From: an uncultured bacterium
Lineage (GTDB): Bacteria > DUMJ01
NCBI GenBank assembly: GCA_937958695.1
Contig: CALGNK010000005.1
Coordinates: forward strand, 1-44,278
Length of the DNA: 44,278 nt
Direction: 5' to 3'
The notes beneath the pieces are model-generated. The model had not been told where the DNA came from, did not search any database, and saw only the letters and a program-made list of their open reading frames with translations. The position numbers and the translations under genes are program-made. Each line of letters opens with the position of its first letter. The first letter of the stretch is position 1. Of this stretch, positions 1 through 42,505 are shown in pieces.

Positions 1-539
1 AAGCCGACAGCATGGGCTAAACCACCGAGTTGCCTTTTTATATCTACTATTTCTTTTTGCATCCCTTCAACTACCGCTATAAGTTTTTCTAGTCTAGCCT
101 CGGTTCTAGCCTGAGCTTGAGCCAGCTCTTCCAGTCTAGCCTCGGTCTTAGCCTGAGCTTGAGCCAGCTCTTCCAGTCTAGCCTCGGTCTTAGCCTGAGC
201 TTGGGCCAGCTCTTCCAGTCTAGCCTCGGTCTTAGCCTGAGCTTGGGCCAGCTCTTCTAGTCTAGCTTCGGTCTTAGCCTGAGCTTGGGCCAGCTCTTCT
301 AGTCTAGCTTCGGTTCTAGCCTGAGCTTGGGCCAGCTCTTCCAGTCTAGCCTCGGTTCTAGCCTGAGCTTGGGCCAGCTCTTCCAGTCTAGCTTCGGTTC
401 TAGCCTGAGCTTGAACTAATTCCTTTATGGCTACTCTTAACTCGCTTACCTCTCTATCTATGGGAAGTAATATCTCAAGCTCCTGCTTTAGGACCTCTCT
501 AGCAATTCTATATATCTCTTCTCTTTCTATCGTTTCCAT
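1..539 (-). CDS. DUF3782-like coiled-coil protein, 5' part only
   Basis: Open from an ATG at 539 to the left edge (179 codons), so the C-terminus is missing. The N-terminus (METIEREEIYRIAREVLKQE) leads into about eight copies of a 14-residue unit, AQAQARTEARLEEL, which is two heptads and predicts a long coiled coil. After the repeats comes LEKLIAVVEGMQKEIVDIKR and then QLGGLAHAVG. That last part resembles DUF3782 proteins of thermophiles, in which a coiled coil precedes a PD-(D/E)XK nuclease-like domain. The nuclease part would lie outside the window, so the family call rests on resemblance only. An extended -10 promoter lies just upstream, and a divergent gene starts at 656. Function unknown. 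Confidence 0.7.
   Translation of the reverse strand, partial: METIEREEIYRIAREVLKQELEILLPIDREVSELRVAIKELVQAQARTEARLEELAQAQARTEARLEELAQAQARTEARLEELAQAQAKTEARLEELAQAQAKTEARLEELAQAQAKTEARLEELAQAQAKTEARLEELAQAQARTEARLEKLIAVVEGMQKEIVDIKRQLGGLAHAVG
91..414. repeat. 42-bp in-frame tandem repeat, about 8 copies
   Basis: The motif AGTCTAGC recurs at 91, 133, 175, 217, 259, 301, 343 and 385, an exact 42-bp period. Each unit encodes one 14-residue coiled-coil unit on the minus strand. Copies differ mainly at one site: the four copies at 133-259 encode AKTEARLEEL, while those at 91, 301, 343 and 385 encode ARTEARLEEL. This clustering suggests recent expansion by slippage or unequal exchange. Confidence 0.95.
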
Positions 540-40862: not shown

Positions 40863-41256
40863 ATCCTCTCCAATATTGCTTTGTCTTGCTCTTCTAAAAG
40901 AGGCTTTATGTCGATATATTCTTTTATAACTCTCTCTTTGTAGTTGTACTGAAACTCTTTAGATATCCTATATAATACCTTACCAGTAGTAACAACTTCA
41001 AACCTTAGATTTAATGGGGCTTTATCTAAGAATACTATATCTATCTCATCCTTAGGGTAAATTTTAGAGAAGATACTGTATAGGGAATCAAAAGGATCTA
41101 AATAATCTTTAGTATTTAGGTTTTAGAAGAACAATGCCTATATCTATATCACTGAGCGCTCCATAGGTATTTAGAGTATAAGAGCCGAATAGATAAACTA
41201 AGGCTATATTTAAATCTCTAAGCTTTCTTATAACTTCTCTGTAACTAAATTATCAT
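40859..41256 (-). pseudogene. MNT nucleotidyltransferase (antitoxin) pseudogene, frameshifted
   Basis: The minus strand encodes REVIRKLRDLNIALVYLFGS, continuing YTLNTYGALSDIDIGIVLL, then stops. This holds a perfect GSX10DXD catalytic motif (about 41140-41189). After a +1/-1 shift near 41115-41130 the homology resumes: DSLYSIFSKIYPKDEIDIVF, then LNLRFEVVTTGKVLYRISKE and VIKEYIDIKPLLEEQDKAIL. Upstream of REVIRK the frame is also broken: LVTEKL ends in a stop in another frame and there is no start codon. With at least two lesions it is a relic. In intact systems MNT AMPylates the HEPN toxin tyrosine. Confidence 0.8.
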
Positions 41257-41329
41257 CTCTCTACCCCAAAAGTATATAGAAAGTTTAGGAAAGTGTTTTT
41301 ATCCATCTCTATTTAACAGATATAAAACA

Positions 41330-41530
41330 ATAAGCCGTAGGTCCCTAACGAATCTTTGAAAACCTGCCCCAAAGTCCCTTAAGCGGTTTGCCCATCTACC
41401 TTTAGGCTCCTTACTAACTTCTGGAATGGACTCCAGAATCTTAGCAGGTTTCCCTTAGTAGCCTAGGCTACCAACCTAAGTTTCTTTGGGTTTAAGGTCT
41501 TCTAGACCCCTCAGAAACCTACGGCACTTA
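41330..41530. ncRNA. Nested inverted-repeat element, possible structured RNA or IS relic
   Basis: The ends carry GCCGTAGGT (41334-41342) and ACCTACGGC (41517-41525), flanked by ATAA/TTAT. Inside are AAACCTGC (41360-41367)/GCAGGTTT (41444-41451) enclosing hairpin TCTGGA/TCCAGA (41420-41437), a perfect palindrome GTAGCCTAGGCTAC (41458-41471), and hairpin GGTCT/AGACC (41496-41508). Together these form a branched fold of about 195 nt. It is GC-richer than its surroundings. It resembles neither tRNA, RNase P nor SRP RNA as far as I can see. GCCGTAGG-type ends recall IS200/IS605 right ends and TnpB guide RNAs, but no tnpB is present. The strand is unknown. Confidence 0.45.
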
Positions 41531-41669
41531 TATAATACTCCCCATATAAAACACTGTCAATACCCGCTGGGGGTATAAGAGAATGGCTTTAAAAATAATT
41601 AAGACAGGAAAGCTAGTTCTTATATTGTAGGGAATTAAAAAGTGATTACAGACCGATGGGATCGAGCTA
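41531..41669. other. Non-coding spacer, nothing recognised
   Basis: AT-rich sequence between the structured element and the deoR promoter. No credible gene or repeat was seen. The stretch 41263-41329 is likewise empty. Confidence 0.5.
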
Positions 41670-41712
41670 TTGACATTAAAGGTATAAAAAGTATGATATG
41701 TTATTATAACAT
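41670..41712 (+). promoter_or_regulatory. deoR promoter with palindromic operator
   Basis: TTGACA (41670-41675), 16 nt, TATGAT (41692-41697), immediately followed by ATGTTATTATAACAT (41698-41712), a palindrome with 7-bp arms around a single T. Its position over the transcription start fits autorepression by the DeoR-type protein. Confidence 0.65.
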
Positions 41713-41734
41713 TTATATTATATAGATATGAGAT

Positions 41735-42505
41735 ATGAAAGTTTCTTTAAGTAAGATAACACGGAAAGAAAAGATAATAGAGATATTGAAGTATAATAGC
41801 AAGATCTCTAAGAAGGAACTAATTAGAAGACTTAAGGTTTCTCCTATGACTTTAGAAAGAGATATCAAAGAACTTGAAGAAGAAGGTATCATTTATAAAA
41901 TATGGGGAGGAATAGCTCTTAGAGAAGAATTTCCTATACCTCCATTTGAAGAAAGGGAAACACTTAATTTGCAGGAGAAGCAAAGTATTGCAAATGAAGC
42001 AATTAAGCTGATAAGCCCAGGAGAAAGTATTGGCCTTAGTGCGGGAACTACAGTTTATGAATTTGCTAAATTAATACCGTCAAAAAGTAACATTAAAGTT
42101 GTTACATATGCAGTTAATACTGCTAGCCTTTTAATTTCTAAAGGTATAGAAGTTATTATGCCTGGTGGAATATGCAAAGATGGGACTTATGCTTTGGTAG
42201 GAGATATCGCAGTCAATTTCTTTAAAAGTGTACATCTTGATAAATGTTTCATAAGCATAAATGGAATAACCTTGGAAAATGGACTAAGTGAAATAGATAT
42301 TCAAGAGGCGATTCTCCTTTCTGCTATGCTTAAGGTTTCTTCAGAGGTGATAGTACTTGCGGATCATACTAAGTTTGGCAGGCAGAAGTTGACTTTTGTC
42401 TGTGGAATAGAAGATGTAGATACTATTGTTACTGATCGTGAAACCCCCCAATATTATATACAAGCTCTTAGAGAGAAAGGAATAAAGGTATTAATAGGAG
42501 AATAA
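41735..42505 (+). CDS. DeoR-family transcriptional regulator
   Basis: 256 residues. The N-terminal winged helix (residues about 10-60) has KISKKELIRRLKVSPMTLER with KELEEEGIIYKIWGG, the DeoR signature. The C-terminal sugar-phosphate sensor domain has SAGTTVYEFAKLIP (phosphate site), VMPGG-type strand IEVIMPGGICKDG, ISINGITLENGLSEIDIQEA and VLADHTKFGRQKL. Such proteins repress sugar catabolic operons until a phosphorylated intermediate binds. The ribosome-binding site is weak. An aminotransferase gene follows after 33 nt. Confidence 0.93.
   Translation: MKVSLSKITRKEKIIEILKYNSKISKKELIRRLKVSPMTLERDIKELEEEGIIYKIWGGIALREEFPIPPFEERETLNLQEKQSIANEAIKLISPGESIGLSAGTTVYEFAKLIPSKSNIKVVTYAVNTASLLISKGIEVIMPGGICKDGTYALVGDIAVNFFKSVHLDKCFISINGITLENGLSEIDIQEAILLSAMLKVSSEVIVLADHTKFGRQKLTFVCGIEDVDTIVTDRETPQYYIQALREKGIKVLIGE

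Follow-up and report, generated by a model that had tools for sequence, protein, structure and literature searches.

A predicted family of dispersed, rod-shaped small RNA genes with a common CsoR-type operator in an uncultured bacterium

We analysed a 44,278-nt stretch of DNA from an uncultured bacterium (hereafter the window) and find that its minus strand probably carries, at 41324-41577, one copy of a dispersed family of small RNA genes repressed by a CsoR-family (CstR-like) thiol sensor, a reading to which we give a probability of roughly 0.7. The DNA itself displays the transcription unit with its promoter, a conserved fold, further copies elsewhere and the operator common to them, and what this unit may do in the cell is discussed further below.

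The initial annotation had proposed a search for other copies in this and related genomes. Such copies exist: in the window's genome (G000; 2.09 Mb in 57 contigs) there are four full ones, on contigs C5, C45, C8 and C7, together with one partial copy (a 62-base fragment), and the other three full copies are 87-95% identical to that in the window. Two sister genomes of the same genus (G001 and G002) carry two copies each, with one fragment in one of them, and a fourth MAG contains a single copy truncated by a contig end (CALLBR010000042.1). No copies were found by a covariance-model search of 287 genomes outside the genus, where stricter filters may lose weak matches, nor did plasmid and phage records (blastn) or viral contigs (IMG/VR, two exact patterns) give a match. 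The family is apparently lineage-specific and seems to be undescribed, in a lineage without close sequenced relatives. The repeated unit, delimited by the extent of similarity to other copies (41324-41577, operator to tail), coincides exactly with the predicted transcription unit, and outside these limits the loci share no more than short pieces (such as MNT genes and an insertion-element-like repeat).

A promoter scan of the minus strand returned a -35 box TTGACA (41555-41560) and a -10 box TATTAT (41532-41537) separated by a 17-nt spacer; this sigma-70 promoter (TTGACA-17-TATTAT, 41560-41532) scores 11/12, and the promoters of nine copies have the same geometry. Judged from its position, transcription would begin with the first base, a G, of the closing stem, giving the predicted transcript a 5' end at 41525. 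Following the closing stem is a T-rich, terminator-like tail, CTTATTGTTTT (41324-41333, minus strand), which as UUAnUGUUUU is conserved in the copies; a simple scan for terminators, restricted to short loops, did not pick it up. By sequence, the unit has its own promoter and 3' end signal, as a structured small RNA gene has. We also considered the RNA as the leader of a downstream operon and ruled this out, because different copies are followed by different sequence, often in convergent orientation.

The minus strand from 41526 to 41332, folded as RNA, reaches -96.7 kcal/mol, compared with -56.9 +/- 4.05 for shuffled sequences (z -9.8), so the structure noticed by the initial annotation lies far beyond chance. 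The plus strand of the same element folds more weakly (z -4.0), an asymmetry that comes from G-U pairs and speaks for an RNA of the minus strand. Among 227 minus-strand tiles of 195 nt, the element is the most stable, even when cut out of register. Where a branched fold had been suggested, both the minimum-energy and the consensus folds of 41525-41334 give a single rod of ~195 nt with 72-74 pairs, whose internal loops are small (the largest 5x3 to 5x5 nt). This predicted transcript body (41334-41525, minus strand, 192 nt) matches the covariance model with 208.5 bits. The outer 9-bp repeats are indeed present at 41334-41342 and 41517-41525, as is the 14-nt palindrome GTAGCCTAGGCTAC at 41458-41471, within the rod. 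In the other two species the latter is not a perfect palindrome. A local hairpin of 5 bp could still form from the sequences flanking it in all copies, without changes on both sides, and this hairpin is possibly an alternative conformer only.

Conservation of the rod was assessed in a shallow alignment of the eight full copies, which come from three species of one genus and have 89% mean identity. The consensus over these copies comprises 72 pairs, with 97.9% of cells staying paired. Changes on both sides occur at 7 pairs (12 cells), compared with 2.9 +/- 1.0 in shuffles and reached in 0/500 of them, a count that is not a probability given that the aligned rows are related. Controls in which the partner was slid retain this relatedness: sliding by 1-3 columns lowered pairing to 32-56%, and covariation, 0.147 in register, was 0.03-0.06 with the partner slid. 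Pairing is conserved with compensatory changes, as in structured bacterial small RNAs. Owing to small insertions and deletions, the copies are between 192 and 198 nt long, and the open frame of ~51 codons that had been noted on the minus strand is not conserved, being broken by indels of 1 to 3 bases and by stops in every frame of every copy, which rules out a protein-coding reading.

Overlapping the -35 box of this promoter is the palindrome ATACCC-N5-GGGTAT (41560-41576), which fits the pattern, TAC-X9-GTA with G-tracts, measured for type-2 CsoR operators of Streptomyces (PMC3902906). G000 contains five exact sites of this kind where 0.08 would be expected from base composition. Three of them belong to rod promoters and one to that of a CsoR-family gene (contig C19), and the fifth is a different sort of palindrome next to CRISPR-like repeats. 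The C7 copy breaks off with its contig, short of the operator. In each of the three genomes the CsoR-family gene carries an exact operator at its promoter, and the rod operators match it, exactly at three rods in G000 and with one mismatch each in G001 and G002 (GGAGTAT, GTGTAT), as would members of one CsoR/CstR regulon. The one-mismatch sites that we inspected fall inside open frames, except one belonging to an unrelated recurring palindrome, and most of the other near-operator sites inspected look like chance. The operator was noticed by inspection, which makes these statistics post hoc; despite this, its recurrence at the CsoR gene in three genomes is hard to dismiss. Separately, an exact CsoR-type operator lies between genes in G001 (G001:C118:5447; L061 948), together with a promoter-like sequence, TTGATA; no rod RNA follows it, and it possibly marks a further member of the regulon.

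The CsoR-family protein encoded on C19 (78 aa) matches CsoR-family structures (InrS, CsoR and others). Its two cysteines are kept in three species (RPC...NYLEHC / NYLEQC / NYLDKC), and it has a Tyr at the position where copper sensors have a His; this combination of two conserved cysteines without the copper-site His is that of the persulfide-sensing CstR subgroup, and for this reason the protein looks like a thiol-sensing repressor of the CstR type. Two thioredoxin-like genes follow its gene, and published work links dithiol CsoR-family repressors with sulfur or thiol genes (PMC10318464, PMC5480029). A second paralogue (C30), adjoining a copper-type ATPase, resembles a typical copper CsoR; the sequence examined around it showed no full ATACCC-N5-GGGTAT operator.

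Transcription, repressor binding and the inducer are matters on which we infer the following course from these sequence features. A CsoR-family repressor, most likely the CstR-like C19 protein, would bind ATACCC-N5-GGGTAT at the -35 box and shut the promoter, and modification of its two cysteines (by reactive sulfur, or by other thiol-reactive or soft-metal stress) would lead to its release. An RNA of ~200 nt would then begin with the closing stem's first base, stop past the stem at the T-rich tail and form a rod interrupted by small internal loops. The presence of several near-identical units would raise the dose, and the rod may act as a protein-binding decoy or regulator. The operator common to these genes points to a regulator and an inducer that are directly testable.

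A multicopy rod whose bases are nearly all paired with each other, in a genome where no Hfq is recognisable, prompts the question which protein it would serve. We looked for Hfq in the three genomes and found none, and since the rod is also almost entirely self-paired, our leading guess, a weak one, is that it is a protein-binding decoy or regulator, perhaps a decoy of CsrA, rather than an mRNA-pairing RNA. CsrA is present in all three genomes, and the eight copies, which are related to each other, contain 31 ANGGA motifs compared with ~16 in shuffles, many of them adjoining internal loops. These observations would suit a CsrB-like sponge titrating CsrA, a specific form of our main reading; yet GGA is not enriched overall, none lies in an apical loop where such a sponge would have many GGA in hairpin loops, and the motifs are not all conserved between species, so that we regard this form as unlikely.

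Directly downstream of the window's rod lies an MNT-HEPN (MntA/HepT-like) toxin-antitoxin pair (~41270-40650, minus strand), whose MNT part is frameshifted with a stop and whose HEPN part keeps RNRLVH. MNT genes stand near rods more often than genome numbers predict (3/8 within 1.2 kb and 5/8 within 6 kb, counted after the fact; loci C5, C8, G002 C287, G001 C154 and G002 C40). Two copies flank a plasmid-type Rep gene (replication initiator), and others adjoin an integrase and a phage-type repressor. We read the rods and MNT genes as lying on common mobile islands, with a functional link possible, and this dispersal, together with the nearby Rep, integrase and phage-type repressor genes, suggests that the rod unit may travel with mobile DNA. 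A fuller picture, which we put forward tentatively, would have a CstR-type persulfide/thiol repressor control a multicopy rod decoy in an Hfq-less lineage, as an RNA arm of a reactive-sulfur response spread by MNT-HEPN mobile islands. As an observation apart, another palindromic repeat, ATGCCCTGGTAGGGTAT, recurs at L052 (C45:37153), at L060 (C3:66928) and at the starts of C28, C38, C40 and C51; it is part of a conserved stretch, adjoins CRISPR-like repeats in at least one place, and may perhaps be an array leader or the end of an insertion element.

The same surroundings are what a non-autonomous mobile, or plasmid- or prophage-borne, element would be expected to have, one that uses its hairpin and promoter to spread or replicate itself (for example as an antisense or copy-control RNA) and whose CsoR-type operator only ties it to a host signal. 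Copies and fragments dispersed at unrelated loci, the Rep gene between two of them, the integrase and phage-type repressor beside others, and the excess of MNT genes all speak for such an element. Against it, the unit has no terminal inverted repeats and no evident target duplication, the plasmid, phage and viral collections gave no match, and the boundaries are those of a transcription unit with different neighbours everywhere. We therefore consider this explanation unlikely, and the miniature mobile element that had been proposed does not hold as the primary nature of the sequence, which ends at an operator and a T-run between unrelated flanks, unlike a MITE. Nor did the suggestion of a TnpB/IscB guide RNA relic find support: no such gene occurs among the neighbouring frames examined, there is no HEARO- or IS605-type Rfam hit, and the unit starts with a promoter. 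It is very unlikely, finally, that we are dealing with an untranscribed palindromic repeat acting at the DNA level (a binding site or a chance hairpin), in view of the strand asymmetry through G-U pairs, the compensatory changes, and a promoter and tail conserved in register.

Among known RNAs, none of 4227 Rfam families matched the rod RNA at gathering score, and at E<=10 no family, RF00013 included, was found over 41100-41800. The new structured RNA that was among the original suggestions is thus supported, the element being multicopy, covarying, furnished with its own promoter and without an Rfam match. In the same genome, a fluoride riboswitch scores above gathering on contig C8 (L005 14-76, minus strand), and an ARAGORN call of tRNA-Pyl (CUA) in the window (278-375, plus strand), unsupported by the Rfam tRNA model, is probably false. 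Canonical 6S RNA occupies a separate locus (L026 1501-1678, C8:2081-2258; 50.5 bits), and a search for it in G002 found none; the rod was rejected as canonical 6S RNA on the basis of this separate locus and the missing RF00013 match. Some bacteria carry two 6S RNAs, and a divergent second one, a rod binding RNA polymerase, would agree with the length and overall shape seen here. The absence of any RF00013 match even at E<=10, with the canonical gene elsewhere, and a multicopy rod that has no large central bubble and sits behind a CsoR-type operator make this highly improbable.

The small RNA gene family that we favour, with its unusually rod-like fold, is of a kind already known, namely a structured small RNA controlled by a regulator, and it can be set beside several established systems. 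6S RNA is likewise a stand-alone, rod-like bacterial non-coding RNA of ~180-200 nt, from which the present RNA differs in model match, central bubble, copy number and operator. The CsrB/RsmZ sponges are also structured, controlled by a regulator and supplied with ANGGA motifs, and CsrA is present in the rod's host; they consist of many short hairpins, whereas the rod is one long hairpin with its GGA outside apical loops. The Qrr small RNAs of vibrios form a multicopy family under one regulator; they depend on sigma-54 and Hfq and act by base-pairing to mRNAs. The rod family resembles them in having several near-identical small RNA genes at separate places with a common promoter and operator, and differs in its sigma-70 promoter, CsoR-type operator, lack of a detected Hfq and almost complete self-pairing. 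To our knowledge, CsoR/CstR-type repressors are known only from regulons of protein genes, and in the open-licence papers searched we found neither a small RNA member of a CsoR/CstR regulon nor the combination of a rod RNA with CsoR-type control. With the CsoR/CstR regulons (S. lividans CsoR, S. aureus CstR, T. thermophilus TTHA1953) the present case has the operator type and dithiol repressors in common; in the cited papers those regulons consist of protein genes, whereas here the sequences would link a CsoR/CstR-type repressor to a small RNA.
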